A stretch of DNA of 64,000 nucleotides, taken from the NCBI GenBank assembly GCA_022703505.1, contig JAKLDN010000002.1, positions 124,001 to 188,000 on the forward strand. The letters are read 5' to 3'. Under the pieces are notes generated by a model. The model was not told where the DNA came from. It searched no databases and was given only the letters and a program-made list of their open reading frames with translations. Positions 7,560 through 17,017 of the stretch are shown here, in pieces; position 1 is the first letter of the stretch, and each line of letters starts with the position of its first letter. Origin of the DNA: Spirochaetota bacterium. Its GTDB lineage: Bacteria; Spirochaetota; Spirochaetia; Treponematales; UBA12059. Made by a program: the position numbers and the translations under genes.

Positions 7560-8738
7560 ATGTTCGATCCGCCGATTCCCGGCCGGCACGATGTCCGGAT
7601 CTGCGTCGTGGGGGGAGGGGGCTCCGGGGCCGCCCTGGCCTACGACCTGGCCCTGCGGGGCTTCTCCGTCCTTCTCCTGGAAAAGGGCGAGTTCACCTCG
7701 GGCACCACGGGCCGCCACCACGGTCAGCTCCACTCGGGGGCGCGGTACGCCGTCGGGGACCGGGCCATCGCCCGGGAGTGCATGGAGGAAACCCTGGTCC
7801 TCCGCCGCATCGTGCCGGAGGCGATCGAGTACAACGGAGGCATCTTCGCCGCCATCCGGGACGACGAGGCGGACTACGCCCCCGCCTTCGTGTCCGCCTG
7901 CCTCGAGTCGGGCATCCCCGCCCGGGAGATCCCGGTCACCGAGGCCCGGGCCCTGGAGCCGGTCCTGAATCCCGCGCTCAAGCGGGCGGTCTGGGTTCCC
8001 GACGGCACCCTCGACGCCTACCGCCTGGCTGCCTCCTTCCTGGCCGCGGCGGCCGCCCTGGGCGCGGACCTCCGGGCCTTCACGGAGCTGGTCGGGATCG
8101 AGGTCTCGGACGGCCGGATCCGGGGCGGGACGGTCCGGGGGCCCGACGCCCGGGAGGAGCGGGTTTCCTTCGACGTCCTGGTCAGCGCGACCGGGGCCTG
8201 GGCGGGGAGGGTGGGCAGCTTGGCGGGCCTGGACATCCCCGTGACCCCCGCCCCGGGAACCATGGTGGCGGTGCGGGGACGGCTCTCGGACCTGGTCCTC
8301 TCCCGCCTCGCGCCGCCGGGGGACGGGGATATCCTGGTGCCCCAGCGGGGGCTCTCCATCATAGGCAGCACCCAGAGCCGGGCCGACTCCCCCGAGGGGA
8401 TCCTCCCGACCAGGGCGGAAATCGAGTTCCTCCGGGTCCGGGCGGACGAGCTGGCCCCGGGCTTTTCCCGGGCCCCCTTCCACGCGGCCTGGGCCGCGGC
8501 TCGGCCCCTGGCGGGACGGGCGGCCTCGGACGCGGAGGGCCGTGGGATCAGCCGGGACTTCGCCGTCCTGGACCACGGGGCCGAGGGGGTGTCCGGGATG
8601 TTCACCCTGATCGGGGGAAAGGCCACGGTCCTCAGGGCCATGGCCCGGAAGGCCGCGGACGCGGTCTGCGGCTTCCTGGACGTCGAGGAACCCTGCCGGA
8701 CCGCGGACTACCCCCTGCCGTCCTGGAGGGCCCTATGA
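7560..8738 (+). CDS. glpA: FAD-dependent glycerol-3-phosphate dehydrogenase-like subunit (GlpA-like)
   Basis: A 392-residue flavoprotein of the DAO/GlpA family. The dinucleotide-binding motif GGGGSG is at residues 18-23, followed by the GlpA hallmark RHHGQLHSGARYAVGD and ECMEETLVLRRI. It is shorter than E. coli GlpA because the C-terminal BFD-like [2Fe-2S] extension is absent. It should oxidise glycerol 3-phosphate, or a related hydroxy acid, and pass electrons to the iron-sulfur protein encoded immediately downstream, whose ATG overlaps this stop (ATGA). The start at 7560 has no ribosome site but sits six bases from a TATACT box. Confidence 0.8.
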   Translation: MFDPPIPGRHDVRICVVGGGGSGAALAYDLALRGFSVLLLEKGEFTSGTTGRHHGQLHSGARYAVGDRAIARECMEETLVLRRIVPEAIEYNGGIFAAIRDDEADYAPAFVSACLESGIPAREIPVTEARALEPVLNPALKRAVWVPDGTLDAYRLAASFLAAAAALGADLRAFTELVGIEVSDGRIRGGTVRGPDAREERVSFDVLVSATGAWAGRVGSLAGLDIPVTPAPGTMVAVRGRLSDLVLSRLAPPGDGDILVPQRGLSIIGSTQSRADSPEGILPTRAEIEFLRVRADELAPGFSRAPFHAAWAAARPLAGRAASDAEGRGISRDFAVLDHGAEGVSGMFTLIGGKATVLRAMARKAADAVCGFLDVEEPCRTADYPLPSWRAL

Positions 8739-9529
8739 TCGAAGTCAACTTCAGGATCCGGGACGGGAAAGACTTCGTGGAGCTGTCCGGAGGCTTCCCG
8801 GAGGATGCGACGGTTCTGGACGCCCTGGAAACCCTCCGGGCCCGGGCCGAGGGAGCTGCCCCGGCGGCCCGGGTGCCCCACTACCGGCACTCCTGCCATC
8901 ACGGGTCCTGCGGAACCTGCGGGGCCGTAGTGAACGGGCTTCCGTCCCTGATGTGCCTGTCCCGGCTTTCGGACCTGGCCGCCCCGCGGCCCCGGGAGCC
9001 CGGGGGTCCCGCCGTGGAACCCTCGCACGGACCTTCCGGAGAGCTCGTCGTGACCCTTGAGCCCCTGACGCGGGGAAGCCTGGTCGCGGGGATCGCCGCC
9101 CGGCCGACGTCAGCCCTGGAGGGCATCCCGGAGGAGTACTCCTACCTGCGTCCCTCGGAGGACGCGGGCCGGGCGTCCCTTCCCGCGGATCCGACCCGGG
9201 ATGGAGAAAAGCTCCCGGCCCTGGACGGGGCGGTTAGCCCGCCCCTTTCCGGCCGGGTCCGCTTCGAGGCCTGCATCGAGTGCGGACTCTGCTCCGCGGC
9301 CTGCCCGGTGACGGCCCCCTTCCTGGGGCCCGCGGCCCTGGCGGCGGTCAACCGCCACCGGGAGAAGGCCCCCGAATCCGCGGAAAGCATGCTCGCCCTG
9401 GCCGCCGGGGCCGACGGGGCGCCTGCCTGTGAAAGGCACCTGCACTGCTCCCGGGTCTGTCCCCAGGCGGTGTACCCGGGAAAGCACATCCAGCTGCTCC
9501 GAAAGGCCCTGGCCGGGCGGGCTCAGTAG
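8735..9529 (+). CDS. SdhB/FrdB-like iron-sulfur electron transfer subunit
   Basis: A 264-residue protein with the three-cluster plan of succinate dehydrogenase/fumarate reductase iron-sulfur subunits. An N-terminal plant-ferredoxin-type site uses C54, C59, C62 and C74. A [4Fe-4S] site is C180-x2-C183-x2-C186-x3-C190-P. A third set C232-x5-C238-x3-C242-P matches the [3Fe-4S] pattern. Between them is a longer, low-complexity linker than usual (about residues 80-165). It is coupled to the GlpA-like gene rather than to sdhA. It probably carries electrons from that flavoprotein towards quinone or another acceptor; no membrane anchor gene is next to it. Confidence 0.8.
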   Translation: MIEVNFRIRDGKDFVELSGGFPEDATVLDALETLRARAEGAAPAARVPHYRHSCHHGSCGTCGAVVNGLPSLMCLSRLSDLAAPRPREPGGPAVEPSHGPSGELVVTLEPLTRGSLVAGIAARPTSALEGIPEEYSYLRPSEDAGRASLPADPTRDGEKLPALDGAVSPPLSGRVRFEACIECGLCSAACPVTAPFLGPAALAAVNRHREKAPESAESMLALAAGADGAPACERHLHCSRVCPQAVYPGKHIQLLRKALAGRAQ

Positions 9530-10125
9530 AACCCGATTTCCCGCACGTGGAGCCGTGCCCGGAAGGCCTTCTTGTAGGCCGTTACCGCCAGACTCCTGAG
9601 TTTCCTCACGTCCAGGGGAAAGGCCGCCCCGAAGTCGCCCTTCACGAAGGCGGACCAGGGGATGCGGATTTCGGACCACCCTTCGGTCACCGGGAGGGGG
9701 GCACTGTAGAAGGCCCAGGGAAAGACCATGGAGGTCGTGCGCAGGAAGATGTAGTAGCCGTCCCCGGCGCCCCGGGCGATCAGGCGGATGCCCTGGTGCT
9801 TGGACCCGTCGTAGTGGGAGGATCTTCCTTCCTTCAGGAGCAGACGGGCCTGGATGAAACCGCCCCGGTTCTCCAGCCGCACCTCCCCGGTCAAGGCCAG
9901 GTAGGGCCCCTCCGCGTCCCCCTCGATCCCCAGGCGGAGGTCCGAGATCCCTCCCATCACCCGGTCGGAGAAGCCTTCCCATCGGGTCCCCAGGGAGGAG
10001 ATGCCGGTGCGGAAGTCGTCCAGGAGAAGCGGGGTCATGGGAGCTCCTTCCGCGGGGGCCCGGGGCGCGAACAGCGCGGCCAGGGACAGGCACGCGAACA
10101 TGGATTGGAAAGACAGCGGCTTCAT
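9523..10125 (-). CDS. CIA30 family secreted protein
   Basis: A 200-residue protein with a signal peptide (KPLSFQSMFACLSLAALFA) and a CIA30 domain (complex I intermediate-associated protein 30, a galactose-binding-like sandwich). Diagnostic segments are LLLDDFRTG, WEGFSDRVMGGISD, GGFIQARL and a long GDGYYIFLRT strand. Bacterial members are mostly uncharacterised and the link to complex I assembly should not be carried over. The start at 10125 lacks a ribosome site; a possible -35/-10 pair places it as leaderless. Its stop overlaps the convergent iron-sulfur gene by seven bases. Confidence 0.8.
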   Translation of the reverse strand: MKPLSFQSMFACLSLAALFAPRAPAEGAPMTPLLLDDFRTGISSLGTRWEGFSDRVMGGISDLRLGIEGDAEGPYLALTGEVRLENRGGFIQARLLLKEGRSSHYDGSKHQGIRLIARGAGDGYYIFLRTTSMVFPWAFYSAPLPVTEGWSEIRIPWSAFVKGDFGAAFPLDVRKLRSLAVTAYKKAFRARLHVREIGFY

Positions 10126-10132
10126 ATCAGGA

Positions 10133-10161
10133 AAGGTATGCATATTATGATCCGGGAGCAA
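10133..10161 (-). promoter_or_regulatory. Possible leaderless promoter of the CIA30 gene
   Basis: On the minus strand TTGCTC (10161-10156), 17 bases, TACCTT (10138-10133), then seven bases to the ATG at 10125. The -10 box matches only the TANNNT core, so this is weaker than the other examples in the window. Confidence 0.35.
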
Positions 10162-10205
10162 TCCTTTCCCGGTGTCACGAACCTTGTGAAAAAGCCGAGG
10201 GCGCC

Positions 10206-10235
10206 TTGACCGTGTTTCGGAACCCCTCCTATACT
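10206..10235 (+). promoter_or_regulatory. Promoter of the metallopeptidase gene, predicted leaderless
   Basis: TTGACC (10206-10211), 18 bases, TATACT (10230-10235), six bases, ATG at 10242. There is no purine-rich ribosome site between the -10 box and the start. Confidence 0.65.
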
Positions 10236-10241
10236 CCGCCC

Positions 10242-11429
10242 ATGAAATTCGCCCCGGCCCTCCTGGCGGCCCTCGCCCTCGCTTCCTGCGCGGCGGCCCC
10301 GGCGACACCGCCGGCCGACTCGGCGCCCGCGACTCCGGCAGCCCCGGTGCTCTCCGCCGGAGACGAGGCGGCGATCCGGGCGGCCGTGGCCCTCCGCGCC
10401 CGGGCCGTCGCGGAAGGCGACAAGGCCCTGTACCTGAGCCTCCTGGCCCCGGGCGACCCGGCCTTCCTCCTGGAGCAGTCCCGGTGGTTCGACTACCGGC
10501 TTTCCGCAGTACTATCCGAGTTCATCCTGGAGGTCGAGTCCCTGGAGGCCTCAGGGCCGGGGGAATGCGCGGTCGCCCTCCGCCAGAGATACCTTTATGG
10601 GCCGAACGGGGAGGTCCGGGACTGCCGCTTCGTCCAGCTCTACCGGAAGGTCGACGAAACCTGGCTGGACGCGGACATCGCCTTCCGGACCCTCCAATCC
10701 GGGCACATGGAGGTCCGGTACGACGAGGGAGTGGACGGGCTCCGGGCGGCCCGCATCCTGGGGGACGCCGAGAAGGCCTGGACCACGGTCCGGGATTCCT
10801 ACGGTGAGGCCCCTGCCCGCAGGACCGTGGTGAAACTCTTCTCGACCCAGGAACTCCTGCGCCAGAACACCAAGATCACCATCGGCCGCCTGTTCTACGG
10901 CTGGGGGGAGCCCGGGGAGTCCATCAAGCTCTTCGTCCGGCCCGACCCCTCCCGCTCCTACGTCCCCGTGCTGGCCCACGAACTGGTCCACGTCGTCACC
11001 CTGGAGACCAGCAAGAACCTCTGCTCCTGGTTCGCCGAGGGCCTGGCGAACCGATTCGGGAACTTCGCCGTCCTGGGCGGGACCTACCTCGACTCGGGGT
11101 ACCACAAGCCCTCCGAGTACGACCGCAGCGTCCGATGGCTCGGGTCCGTGGACTCCCAGACCATCGACGACGAATACGAGTGGGGGATCTACGGGGGGAT
11201 GTCCGGGGCGGTCGTGGGCTTCCTGGCCGAGCGCTACGGCCCGGACGCGCCCCGGGCCGTGGTCCGGGCCCTGGCCGCGTACCCCCAGGTCCAGGAAGGC
11301 TATGTGTACGCCGAGCACGACGCCCGGTTCCGGGGCTACCTCGACGGGGCGATGAAGACGGCCCTGGGGGTCGGCCTCGAGGAATTCGACCTGGCCTGGC
11401 GGGAGTGGATCCGGAACCGGGTGAAATGA
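10242..11429 (+). CDS. Putative zinc metallopeptidase lipoprotein (gluzincin-like)
   Basis: A 395-residue exported protein with a lipobox-like LALASC at residues 11-16, followed by an Ala/Pro-rich spacer. The C-terminal half has HELVH at residues 246-250 with a downstream glutamate in WFAEG (E266), the HExxH...E arrangement of MA-clan (M1/peptidase_MA-like) zinc peptidases. The N-terminal half (about 45-160) looks like an SnoaL/NTF2-type fold by its strand-rich pattern. It is probably a periplasmic or outer-leaflet peptidase of unknown target. Expression is predicted from the leaderless promoter just upstream. Confidence 0.72.
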   Translation: MKFAPALLAALALASCAAAPATPPADSAPATPAAPVLSAGDEAAIRAAVALRARAVAEGDKALYLSLLAPGDPAFLLEQSRWFDYRLSAVLSEFILEVESLEASGPGECAVALRQRYLYGPNGEVRDCRFVQLYRKVDETWLDADIAFRTLQSGHMEVRYDEGVDGLRAARILGDAEKAWTTVRDSYGEAPARRTVVKLFSTQELLRQNTKITIGRLFYGWGEPGESIKLFVRPDPSRSYVPVLAHELVHVVTLETSKNLCSWFAEGLANRFGNFAVLGGTYLDSGYHKPSEYDRSVRWLGSVDSQTIDDEYEWGIYGGMSGAVVGFLAERYGPDAPRAVVRALAAYPQVQEGYVYAEHDARFRGYLDGAMKTALGVGLEEFDLAWREWIRNRVK

Positions 11430-12829: not shown

Positions 12830-13029
12830 TCTGGGCCGCGGGGGGACGCCCGCTCCCTCCGCCGATTCACGTTTCCATCCGTCCATTCCCCGGGCCCGGC
12901 GTTTGAGCCTTAGGTTGAAAAATTCTCGCGATTTTCCTTGCATTCTGACTTTGCCGTATTAAACTTATTAAAGTACCGAAATACCCAAATATGATCATCC
13001 CGTACGAGCACGGTACGAGGAGGCGGTTC
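12830..13029. other. Intergenic region before the nitrate module
   Basis: A 200-base gap, unusually AT-rich between about 12905 and 12995 for this genome. A CGGCCC/GGGCCG hairpin without a U-run overlaps the end of the preceding gene. TTGCAT and TTGCCG hexamers (12938-12943 and 12951-12956) could be -35 boxes, but no convincing -10 is correctly spaced. ATGATCAT at about 12990 is palindromic. I see no clear FNR, NarL or sigma-54 site. Confidence 0.4.
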
Positions 13030-14325
13030 ATGGGTGATACGAGAGTCGCGGGAACCCCGGCCCGGGGCCTGGCGGGAGCAACCCTGGGGTTCTTCATCGG
13101 CTTTGCGGCGGTATCCTTGTTCGGACCCACGGTCCGGTACCTGCAGGAGGCGGCGGGCTTCGGTCCGGTCCAGGCGGGCCTCCTGGTTTCGATCCCGAGC
13201 CTGACGGGATCCCTCCTCAGAATACCTTTTTCAGCTCTGGTGGACACCACCGGGGGACGTAAGCCTTTCCTGGTCCTCCTGGGCCTTTCGGCCGCGGGCC
13301 TGGCGGGCCTCTGGTTCCTGCTCTCCGGGGATCCCGCGGGCCTTCCGGGACGCTTCCCCGGTCTCCTGGTCTTCGGGGCCCTGGGGGGCTGCGGCATAGC
13401 CACCTTCTCCGTGGGGATCAGCCAGACCTCCTACTGGTATCCCCAACGGATGCAGGGGGCGGCCCTGGGGGTGTACGCCGGGCTCGGCAACCTGGCCCCC
13501 GGGATCTTCGCCTTCCTGCTCTCCGCCCTGTCCCTGCCCCTGCTGGGCCTGTCCGGATCCTACCTGGCCTGGCTGGGGATCCTGGCCGCGGGCACCGCGG
13601 GCTACGCCCTGCTGGGGCGGAACGCCCCGTACTTCCAGCTGCGGTCCTCGGGCCTGGGCCCCGAGGAGGCGGCCCGCCGGGCCCGGGAAGACCACGGCCA
13701 GGAGCTCTTCCCCCGGGGGAGCGTCCGGGAAAGCCTGGCCGCCTCCGCCTCGGAGTGGAGGACCTGGGCCCTGACGGGGATCTACTTCACCACCTTCGGG
13801 GGCTTCCTGGCCCTGACCGCCTGGCTGCCCAAGTACTGGGGCTCCTACTTCGGCCTCTCCCTGGGCGCCGCGGGGAGCCTGGCTGCCCTCTTCTCGGTCT
13901 CCGCCTCCCTGTTCCGGGCGGCAACGGGGGGAGTCTCGGACCGCCTGGGAGGGGCGAGGACCCTCGCCCTGGCCCTGGGGGTCATCGTCCTGGGCTCCGC
14001 GGGGCTGGCCCTGTCGGGGTCCGCGGTCCTCTCCGCCGCGGCCAGCCTGGTCCTGGCCCTGGGCATGGGGGCCGGGAACGCGGCGACCTTCAAGCTGGTG
14101 CCCCAGCTGGTCCCCCGGGCCGTGTCCGGGGCGGTGGGCTGGGTGGGGGGCCTGGGGGCCTTCGGGGGCTTTTTGATCCCCAACGGCCTGGCCCTCTTCC
14201 TGGGAACCGGGGGCCGGGGGGATCCCGGGTACGCCCGGGGGTTCTGGATCCTGGTACTTCTGGGCCTGGCCTCCCTGGGTCTGGTCCGGACCCTCGCCCC
14301 AGGCGCGGCCCGGGAAAGGAGCTGA
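13030..14325 (+). CDS. NarK-like nitrate/nitrite transporter (MFS)
   Basis: A 431-residue major facilitator protein with twelve predicted helices. Near residues 346-360 the segment GAGNAATFKLVPQLV matches the second nitrate signature of the NarK/NNP family, and GALGGCGIATFSVGISQ resembles the first. An upstream in-frame ATG (12991) is possible, but GAGGAGG just before 13030 marks the likely start. Two bases separate it from the molybdopterin reductase gene, so it probably supplies that enzyme with substrate. Whether it imports nitrate or exchanges nitrate and nitrite cannot be told. Confidence 0.82.
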   Translation: MGDTRVAGTPARGLAGATLGFFIGFAAVSLFGPTVRYLQEAAGFGPVQAGLLVSIPSLTGSLLRIPFSALVDTTGGRKPFLVLLGLSAAGLAGLWFLLSGDPAGLPGRFPGLLVFGALGGCGIATFSVGISQTSYWYPQRMQGAALGVYAGLGNLAPGIFAFLLSALSLPLLGLSGSYLAWLGILAAGTAGYALLGRNAPYFQLRSSGLGPEEAARRAREDHGQELFPRGSVRESLAASASEWRTWALTGIYFTTFGGFLALTAWLPKYWGSYFGLSLGAAGSLAALFSVSASLFRAATGGVSDRLGGARTLALALGVIVLGSAGLALSGSAVLSAAASLVLALGMGAGNAATFKLVPQLVPRAVSGAVGWVGGLGAFGGFLIPNGLALFLGTGGRGDPGYARGFWILVLLGLASLGLVRTLAPGAARERS

Positions 14326-14327
14326 CC

Positions 14328-16415
14328 ATGCCCAAGGTCGTCCGTACCACGTGCAGTTACTGTTCCGTGGGCTGCAATTTCGACGCCGTCTACGACGACG
14401 AGGGGAAGCTCGTGTCCTTCCTCCCCGCCAAGGACTATCCCGTGAACCGGGGCAGCTCCTGCCCCAAGGGCTTCCACCTGCTCAAGGCCCTGGAGGTCCC
14501 GGAACGGGGGGCGACGCCTCTCCTGCGGAATCTCCGAGGGGACCTGGAGCCCGTGGACTGGGACCGGGCGATATCGGTCTTCGTGGAAAGGTTCAAGGCC
14601 GTCCGGGACCGCCACGGGCCCGAGTCCGCGGCCTTCCTCTCCACGGGCCAGATCCCCATGGAGGAGATGGCCCTCCTGGGGGCCTTGTTCAAGTTCGGCA
14701 TGGGCTTCGTGCACGCCGACGGGAACACCCGGCAGTGCATGGCCAGCGCGGCGGTGGCCTACAAGCAGTCCTTCGGCTTCGACGCCCCGCCCTTCTGCTA
14801 CGAGGACCTGGAGCTCACGGACCTTCCGATCTTCGTGGGGGCCAATCCCGTCATCGCCCACCCGGTGCTCTGGGCCCGCCTGAAGGGCCGGGCCGAGAAG
14901 CCCCCGGTGGTGGTCATCGATCCCCGGTTGACCAAGACCGCCCGGGAGGCGGACCTCCACATGGCCGTGCGGCCCAAGGGGGACCTCACTCTCCTCTACG
15001 GCCTGGCAAGGATCCTCGTCGAGGAGGATTGGATCGACCGGCCCTTCCTCGAGGCCCATACGGAGGGGTTCGAGGAGTTCTCGGAGTTCGTCCGCCGCTT
15101 CGACGACGCCCGGGTGGAGGCGGAGAGCGGCATCCCCCCGGCCCGGGTCCGGGAATTGGCGGAGCGCATCCGCTCCGCCCGGGCGGTGTCCTTCTGGTGG
15201 ACCATGGGTGTGAACCAGAGCCACCAGGCCGTCCGGACCGCCCAGGCGATCATCAACCTCTGTCTCATGACCGGGAACATCGGACGCCCCGGGACGGGGC
15301 CGAACTCCATCACCGGCCAGTCCGACGCCATGGGCTCCCGGATGTTCAGCCTGACCACCTCCTTGCCCGCGGGCCGGGACTTCACGAAGGAGGCGGACCG
15401 GATCCAGACGGCGGCGATCCTGGGCATCGACCCCGGCCGCATCCCCTCGGTGAACAGCCTGCCCTACCACAAGATCCTGGAGGCCGTGGACGAGGGGCGG
15501 ATCAAGGCCCTTTGGTTCGTGGCCACGAATCCCGCCCATTCCTGGATCGACAAGCACACCCTCCTCCATCGCCTGGCCAAGCTCGAATTCCTCGTGGTCC
15601 AGGACCTCTATCCCGGCACGGAGACCGCGGCCCGGGCCCACCTCTACCTGCCCGCGGCGGGGAGCGCGGAGAAGGACGGGACAATGATCAATTCGGAGCG
15701 CCGCCTCGGGGCGGTCCGCAAGGTCCGGGACGCCCCGGGCCAAGCCCTGCCGGACTTCGAGATCTTCCTGCGTATCGCCCGGGCCTGGGGCTGCGGGGAC
15801 CTGTTCCGGGAGTGGACCGACCCCGAAGCGGCCTTCCGGATCCTCCAGCGGCTGTCCGCGGGCCGGCCCTGCGACTTCTCGGGGATCCGGGGCTACGAGG
15901 AGATCCGGGAACGGGGGGGGATCCAGTGGCCTTTCCCGGCCTCCGGGGCGGATCCGGCCCCCCAGCGGCGTCTCTTCGCGGACGGACGCTTTTACACGGA
16001 CAGCGGCCGCGCCAAGTTCCTCTTTTCCGAACCTCAGCCCATGCCGGAGGTCCCGGACGCGGAGTACCCCTTCCAGCTCATCACGGGCCGGGGCAGCCTG
16101 GTCCAGTGGCATACCCAGACCCGGACGGGCAAGGTGGCCATGCTCCGGTCCCTGGCCCCCGCGGAAGCCTACGCGGACATCCACGCCCGGGACGCCCGGC
16201 GGCTGGGCATCGCCGAGGGGGCGGCCGTCCGGGTGCGGTCCCGGCGGGGTGAGGTGAGGGTCAAGGCCCGAATATCCGACGAGGTCTCCCCCGGGCAGGT
16301 CTTCATGCCCATGCACTACCCGGAATCCAATTTCCTCACCTTCCCGGCCTTCGATCCCTACAGCGCGGAGCCGGCCTACAAGATGGGGGCCGTGGCCCTG
16401 GAGGCGGAGCCGTGA
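14328..16415 (+). CDS. Molybdopterin oxidoreductase, NasA-type nitrate reductase
   Basis: A 695-residue catalytic subunit of the DMSO reductase superfamily. Its N-terminal [4Fe-4S] ligands are C9-x2-C12-x3-C16 and C45. The molybdenum ligand is a cysteine (C137) in NTRQCMASA, as in Nap/Nas nitrate reductases and unlike Ser or Asp types. The C-terminal molybdopterin dinucleotide-binding domain is complete. It lacks the C-terminal [2Fe-2S] domain of some NasA proteins and has no NAD or NapB partner nearby, so a ferredoxin or flavodoxin donor is likely. NarK-like gene before and mobA after support nitrate. A cytoplasmic location is implied by the absence of a Tat signal. Formate dehydrogenase is the main alternative. 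Confidence 0.82.
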   Translation: MPKVVRTTCSYCSVGCNFDAVYDDEGKLVSFLPAKDYPVNRGSSCPKGFHLLKALEVPERGATPLLRNLRGDLEPVDWDRAISVFVERFKAVRDRHGPESAAFLSTGQIPMEEMALLGALFKFGMGFVHADGNTRQCMASAAVAYKQSFGFDAPPFCYEDLELTDLPIFVGANPVIAHPVLWARLKGRAEKPPVVVIDPRLTKTAREADLHMAVRPKGDLTLLYGLARILVEEDWIDRPFLEAHTEGFEEFSEFVRRFDDARVEAESGIPPARVRELAERIRSARAVSFWWTMGVNQSHQAVRTAQAIINLCLMTGNIGRPGTGPNSITGQSDAMGSRMFSLTTSLPAGRDFTKEADRIQTAAILGIDPGRIPSVNSLPYHKILEAVDEGRIKALWFVATNPAHSWIDKHTLLHRLAKLEFLVVQDLYPGTETAARAHLYLPAAGSAEKDGTMINSERRLGAVRKVRDAPGQALPDFEIFLRIARAWGCGDLFREWTDPEAAFRILQRLSAGRPCDFSGIRGYEEIRERGGIQWPFPASGADPAPQRRLFADGRFYTDSGRAKFLFSEPQPMPEVPDAEYPFQLITGRGSLVQWHTQTRTGKVAMLRSLAPAEAYADIHARDARRLGIAEGAAVRVRSRRGEVRVKARISDEVSPGQVFMPMHYPESNFLTFPAFDPYSAEPAYKMGAVALEAEP

Positions 16416-17017
16416 GTGCGCCCCTCTTCGGCCTCGTGCTGGCCGGGGGCCGGAGCGTCCGTATGGGCCGCCCAAAGGCCGGCCTCCGGTACCGGGACGA
16501 GGACCAGGCCCACTATCTCACGGGGCTCCTGGGCTCGGTCTGCGAGGGCGCCTGGCTTTCCGTCGGTGCGGACCCGGCCTCGGGGGCGGAATTCGGGGAC
16601 CTGCCCATCCTCCGGGACCGGGATCCGGGCCTGGGTCCCGCGGCGGGCCTCCTGGCCGCCTGGGACAGGCTGCCAGAGGCCGCATGGCTGGTCGCGGCTG
16701 TGGACCTGCCCTTCCTGGACCGCCCGGCGGTGGAGCGCCTGGCGGGGGCCCGGGATCCGGCCAAGGCGGCCACGGCAGCCCTGAACCCGGATTCCCTCCT
16801 TCCGGAGCCCCTCTTCGCGGTCTACGAGCCGGCCTTCCGGGCCCATCTCGAGGCCGCGGCGGCGGCCGGGAGGCCGGGGCTGGCGGGGGTCCTGGCCCGT
16901 CTCCGGAACCGGGGGGAAGGCCCGGGGGTGGCCCTGGTCCGGTTCAAGGACGCCCGGGTCCTCCGGGACGTGGATACGAGGGAAGAATACCGGCTTTTGT
17001 CGGGAGGTGTCGCATGA
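16412..17017 (+). CDS. mobA: Molybdenum cofactor guanylyltransferase
   Basis: A 201-residue nucleotidyltransferase with the MobA signature LVLAGGRSVRMGRPKA at the N terminus and a VAAVDLPFL metal-binding strand in the middle. It attaches GMP to molybdopterin to make the dinucleotide cofactor needed by the reductase encoded just upstream. It starts with GTG, overlapping the reductase stop (GTGA), so stoichiometric co-expression is expected. Its own stop overlaps the ATG of the next gene. Confidence 0.88.
   Translation: MSAPLFGLVLAGGRSVRMGRPKAGLRYRDEDQAHYLTGLLGSVCEGAWLSVGADPASGAEFGDLPILRDRDPGLGPAAGLLAAWDRLPEAAWLVAAVDLPFLDRPAVERLAGARDPAKAATAALNPDSLLPEPLFAVYEPAFRAHLEAAAAAGRPGLAGVLARLRNRGEGPGVALVRFKDARVLRDVDTREEYRLLSGGVA

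Follow-up and report, generated by a model that had tools for sequence, protein, structure and literature searches.

Where do the electrons go? A GlpA-type flavoprotein gene coupled to an SdhB-type iron–sulfur protein gene in Spirochaetota

The known role of SdhB-type proteins is to wire electrons to quinone, and a conserved SdhB homologue that comes without an anchor, is joined to a likely glycerol-3-phosphate dehydrogenase and occurs in bacteria seemingly without quinone synthesis raises the question of where its electrons go. The spirochaete gene pair described here offers a tractable two-protein system for this electron-acceptor question. It lies in a 64,000-nucleotide stretch of DNA, referred to below as the window, from a Spirochaetota genome of 3.66 Mb that is 98.5% complete, and its features are as follows.

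7560..8738, plus strand: gene for a GlpA-type FAD-dependent dehydrogenase, ATG 7560 to TGA 8738, 392 aa
8735..9529, plus strand: gene for an SdhB-type iron–sulfur protein, ATG 8735 to TAG 9529, 264 aa
8735..8738, plus strand: ATGA stop/start overlap of both genes, four bases, from the sequence
8894..8956, plus strand: [2Fe-2S] cysteine motif C54-x4-C59-x2-C62-x11-C74, its 4 cysteines present in 43/43 aligned rows (2 rows being repeats)
9272..9460, plus strand: [4Fe-4S]/[3Fe-4S] motifs CxxCxxCxxxC and C-x5-C-x3-C, the full 11-cysteine order present in 40/41 distinct loci

The initial annotation had proposed that the GlpA-like gene is translationally coupled to the SdhB-type gene, and the two open reading frames, with their four-base ATGA overlap, bear this out. 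Close relatives of the flavoprotein align from residue 1 of the ATG at 7560. The nearest named relatives of the genome are metagenome-assembled genomes, one carrying the label Treponema sp. (89% flavoprotein identity) and one the label Spirochaetes (88%). Both genes are under purifying selection, with dN/dS values of 0.15–0.19 and 0.25–0.33 when the window copies are compared with those of four relatives.

The pair was found in 41 distinct Spirochaetota loci, always in the same order with the flavoprotein gene first. One bearer, Alkalispirochaeta alkalica DSM 8900 (L046), is a cultured organism. This number of loci corresponds to 43 aligned rows minus two repeats and retains L038, the one locus without the complete 11-cysteine set, where the contig ends before the second gene does. 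The genes overlap in 26 of the 41 loci, and by the same four bases in 18, with start codons as chosen by script. Dropped before the count were two loci at contig edges (L020 and L034), one with a different, 30% identical protein (L033) and an alphaproteobacterial locus with a partial glpA match of 30% (L064); in L062 and L063, glpA is present and the contig ends just after or inside it. When 58 relatives were searched with the iron–sulfur protein, matches were obtained in 29 genomes, and the flavoprotein gene lay directly upstream in 26 of these. The three others are G013, where a contig edge intervenes, G025, in which the protein is a different one of 30% identity, and G008 (L022, L111:3175-3924), where the iron–sulfur gene stands alone with no glpA within the surrounding 8-kb stretch. 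A contig scan with the flavoprotein, sensitive enough for close relatives only, picked up 30 loci, of which 29 belong to Spirochaetota.

In an even sample of 296 Spirochaetota genomes, iron–sulfur matches occurred in 27 (29 matches, E ≤ 1e-20). At least 8 of the 296 genomes have such a match (all ≥197 bits) with the flavoprotein beside it, a lower bound, as only nine candidates were scored in many genomes; the other 21 matches all score ≤167 bits, do not have the flavoprotein beside them and resemble ordinary SdhB. No copy of the pair was found on plasmids, the match lists of the two proteins sharing two records in which the matches are far apart. Between loci, the distances measured for one protein track those for the other (r = 0.89 over 741 pairwise comparisons of 39 loci), as would equally be expected from shared ancestry alone. 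A lone ferredoxin-like gene lying beside a DAO gene by chance is ruled out by a linkage kept in 41 distinct loci. The initial annotation had named relatives as the place to look for the same coupling, and the linkage to glpA is indeed conserved there, with G008 as the exception; this conserved coupling lends good support to its proposal of a two-subunit dehydrogenase.

The iron–sulfur protein carries Fer2_3 and Fer4_8 domains, both above their Pfam cut-offs, with the plant-type [2Fe-2S] domain ahead of the dicluster ferredoxin domain, and all 11 of the cysteines that had been read as a full 2Fe-2S, 4Fe-4S and 3Fe-4S pattern are present (C54, C59, C62, C74; C180, C183, C186; C190, C232, C238, C242). 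The third position after C232 is never a cysteine in the 40 complete loci (H 21, A 17, F 1, S 1), and the last cluster site is for this reason predicted to hold a [3Fe-4S] cluster. The best NCBIfam model is TIGR00384 (dhsB), at 77 bits below its cut-off of 88, and the best sequence match in the PDB is E. coli FrdB. An AlphaFold single-chain model (pLDDT 80) has SdhB/FrdB chains as the best 32 of its 33 structure matches at E ≤ 0.001, with TM scores of 0.52–0.60 by query length and large rmsd values of 9–12.5. In complex II the equivalent of the loop after C190 lies on the quinone side; here this loop has three residues fewer than in three solved SdhB/FrdB proteins aligned with it. A 19-residue stretch with a hydrophobicity of at least 1.6 occurs in 11 of 43 iron–sulfur proteins; nine of these stretches contain cluster cysteines and are therefore not taken as membrane helices, and neither protein of the pair has a convincing membrane stretch by hydrophobicity.

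The flavoprotein matches the Pfam DAO family with 158 bits, and its best NCBIfam model is GlpA (TIGR03377), with 384.8 bits against a cut-off of 552.8. The match covers profile positions 2–377 of 530, and the score falls under the cut-off because the C-terminal domain is missing. No Fer2_BFD domain was found in a Pfam search up to E = 1, so that the earlier description of a GlpA-like protein without its own C-terminal cluster domain holds. The AlphaFold single-chain model (pLDDT 89) has, among its Foldseek matches to DAO enzymes, E. coli GlpD with a TM score of 0.80 by query length. In a HMMER alignment, R62, R315, R332 and K354 of the flavoprotein correspond to R54, R317, R332 and K354 of E. 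coli GlpD (2qcu), which we take to be contacts of the phosphate substrate, glycerol 3-phosphate, and all four are invariant in 23/23 aligned flavoprotein rows. The genome of the window also encodes a glycerol kinase, GlpK (L066, 705.5 bits versus a cut-off of 590.35), unlinked to the pair. Given the invariant GlpD-site residues and this kinase, glycerol 3-phosphate is likely to be the substrate, as judged from sequence.

The flavoprotein is 37% identical to each of two annotated GlpA proteins, from Citrobacter (L114) and from Halapricum (L115). In a protein tree, a branch with support 89/95 has 20 pair proteins on one side and places them next to canonical GlpA; the outgroups sit on very long branches, so the tree tells little beyond that split. 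Short GlpA-like proteins are also encoded on plasmids of Rubrobacter (L116:3932-5104, 390 aa) and Halorussus (L117:3932-5155, 407 aa), where they have no iron–sulfur neighbour, and shortness alone therefore does not imply an SdhB-type partner. The Rubrobacter gene adjoins glycerol-1-phosphate dehydrogenase genes.

The surroundings of the pair were considered for a further subunit. In the window it is flanked by a divergent GntR/permease-like/ABC operon and a convergent gene of the CIA30 family (complex I assembly factor-like; 9523-10308, minus strand), which overlaps the iron–sulfur reading frame by a few bases. Across 29 fetched loci and the window, the commonest shared neighbour is a convergent glycosyl hydrolase (10/30), genes for an HTH_20 regulator and for a Holliday-junction-type endonuclease each turn up in about six, and no neighbour is common to all. 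Pfam scans of ten neighbouring proteins from the fetched loci and ten from the window gave no anchor; other proteins seen there were LplA, PTS-EIIA/DAC, NUDIX, aldo-keto reductase, Dus and an AAA/DUF4143 protein. Neither GlpB nor Pyr_redox_2 and DUF1667 partners were found among the window neighbours, and the few loci with Pfam-scanned neighbours had no glpK, glpF or other glycerol gene beside the pair. The adjacent genes vary between loci and none of those scanned is an anchor, so no third subunit seems to be encoded beside the pair. Farther along the window, at 12991-17017, there is a row consisting of an MFS transporter, a lone molybdopterin oxidoreductase and a MobA-like NTP transferase, which looks like an assimilatory nitrate cluster with an oxidoreductase of the nitrate-reductase type.

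It had also been noted that no anchor subunit or GlpC adjoins the pair; this is confirmed, and for GlpC the absence extends beyond the window. The CCG domain (PF02754) gave 0 matches in the whole genome, in a search whose control was positive in 12/14 genomes, and the genome therefore has no GlpC. There is likewise no second SdhB-family match at E ≤ 0.001 or E ≤ 1e-20, and thus no ordinary complex II was found.

The gene content of the bearers bears directly on the acceptor. The genome of the window has Rnf, no cytochrome bd, and neither MqnC nor MenD above cut-off; its UbiA-family match is MenA-like, with 67.5 bits below a cut-off of 102.15. Among 26 pair genomes, MenD and MqnC are above cut-off in none, nor is MenA in any of the 23 searched (nine sub-threshold matches), while RnfC is above cut-off in 24 and cytochrome bd is present in two (G023 and G041). 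MenD passed its cut-off in two of the 58 relatives, G034 and G036, both without the pair. De novo menaquinone synthesis is unlikely in pair bearers on these counts of zero, and most pair-bearing spirochaetes seem unable to make quinone. A UbiA-family match is present in 23 of the 26 pair genomes, so that the gene counts leave room for quinone from a scavenged precursor or by another pathway; it is absent in G014 (94% complete), G021 (79%) and G050 (99%). The lone MenA-like UbiA-family protein at L065:1359-2268 (G000 contig 9) lies near an ABC ATPase and a substrate-binding-like protein, and in a genome with no MenD or MqnC above cut-off, scavenging of a quinone precursor is possible.

The initial annotation suggested that electrons may pass to quinone or to an unknown acceptor. 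Only the latter part stands: with MenD and MqnC above cut-off in 0/26 genomes, MenA in 0/23 and G050 without a UbiA-family match, the genes present in most bearers give poor support to quinone as acceptor, and we infer something other than menaquinone, a soluble carrier being a guess.

The reading preferred here, to which a probability of about 0.5 is given, is that the pair encodes, in anaerobic spirochaetes, an sn-glycerol-3-phosphate dehydrogenase that is a heterodimer without an anchor, is probably cytosolic and uses an acceptor other than quinone. The GlpA-type subunit would use its FAD to oxidise the glycerol 3-phosphate that glycerol kinase makes, yielding dihydroxyacetone phosphate, and the SdhB-type subunit would act as the electron wire in place of the missing BFD domain, GlpB and GlpC. 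Electrons would run from FAD through [2Fe-2S], [4Fe-4S] and [3Fe-4S] and then pass to the non-quinone acceptor, for which a soluble carrier of the ferredoxin or flavodoxin type is the likeliest candidate; this carrier would connect to the NADH/Rnf redox pool. We infer the substrate, the physical complex and the cluster order; the ferredoxin- or flavodoxin-type identity of the acceptor is speculative. At about −190 mV, glycerol 3-phosphate does not have the reducing power to donate electrons to ordinary ferredoxin, and a ferredoxin acceptor would therefore need reverse electron flow or a carrier of higher potential. A broader version is put forward tentatively, at rather less than even odds: that the SdhB wire was moved onto a GlpA flavoprotein to give a quinone-independent, anchorless, complex-II-like module, by which fermenting spirochaetes unable to make quinone would couple glycerol 3-phosphate to a soluble carrier of low potential, with electrons flowing one way or the other.

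In complex II, SdhB-type subunits with a [3Fe-4S] cluster hand their electrons to quinone, and by this established precedent the pair might instead be a membrane-associated glycerol-3-phosphate:quinone oxidoreductase, with an anchor encoded elsewhere or peripheral binding and with quinone from a scavenged precursor. The UbiA-family matches in 23/26 pair genomes (MenA-like in that of the window), the cytochrome bd in two and the Thermofilum-type loci described in a 2025 survey, with glpA followed by sdhB, C and D (PMC11962113), are all consistent with this. However, MenD and MqnC are above cut-off in none of the 26, the nearly complete genomes G050 (99%) and G014 (94%) have no UbiA-family match, no anchor gene was seen beside the pair, hydrophobic stretches are few and mostly over cluster cysteines, and the loop after C190 lacks three of the residues that the three aligned SdhB/FrdB structures have there, so that a quinone oxidoreductase is considered unlikely.

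The same missing MenD and MqnC would suit an enzyme running in reverse, as a dihydroxyacetone-phosphate reductase dependent on a reduced carrier, which would supply glycerol 3-phosphate to lipid synthesis or serve to dispose of electrons. By the redox potentials this would be downhill from reduced ferredoxin, and a second glycerol-3-phosphate-dehydrogenase-like operon of the GlpTk-NOX-MOX type could serve oxidation; GlpA-type enzymes are, however, known as oxidising, and reversal is thought quite improbable. A different substrate, either another hydroxy acid or a polyol phosphate, is improbable too. It is suggested by a score below the GlpA cut-off (384.8 of 552.8 bits) and by the lack of glpK, glpF or other glycerol genes beside the few Pfam-scanned loci, but GlpA is by far the best family, the absent C-terminal domain accounts for the deficit, and the residues aligned to the substrate site of GlpD are invariant.

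The closest parallel is archaeal. In Thermofilum pendens and relatives, counterparts of sdhB, C and D come after glpA, and a glycerol-3-phosphate dehydrogenase with an SdhB wire is predicted (2025 survey, PMC11962113). As compared by that published description, both units have a glpA-type and then an sdhB-type gene, whereas the spirochaete unit has neither sdhC nor sdhD. It is thus a bacterial counterpart of the Thermofilum arrangement in which C and D are absent, and it departs from the rule stated in the same survey that bacterial glpA is consistently accompanied by glpB and glpC. A literature search of open-licence papers yielded no earlier description of a bacterial glpA-sdhB unit; Spirochaetes appear in a table of taxa in PMC5059525, the passages seen of which do not mention such a pair.

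With the GlpABC enzymes of enterobacteria and haloarchaea, the spirochaete version shares the catalytic GlpA domain (the 37% identity to Citrobacter and Halapricum GlpA given above), but it has no C-terminal BFD domain, no adjacent GlpB and no GlpC/CCG protein in the genome. With SdhB/FrdB of complex II, the iron–sulfur protein has in common the two-domain architecture, all cluster cysteines and the fold; its partner is a DAO-fold protein rather than SdhA, and the loop after C190 is shorter. In Sulfolobus acidocaldarius, a GlpA homologue likewise has a non-canonical partner gene, CoxG, which, according to PMC11962113, is a membrane tether for an enzyme that reduces quinone directly, in contrast to the iron–sulfur protein of the spirochaete pair.

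Another anaerobic family of glycerol-3-phosphate dehydrogenases is GlpTk-NOX-MOX, of Thermococcus, Thermotoga and Giardia. The window's genome carries, at L076:8364-11423 (G000 contig 10), a second glycerol-3-phosphate-dehydrogenase-like operon encoding a DAO protein with a C-terminal BFD domain, a Pyr_redox_2 protein and a DUF1667 protein. In keeping its BFD domain and its Pyr_redox_2 and DUF1667 companions, this copy differs from the pair, which has none of these. It fits the type as described in PMC11962113, and its domain order matches that of the Giardia enzyme in PMC4450592.
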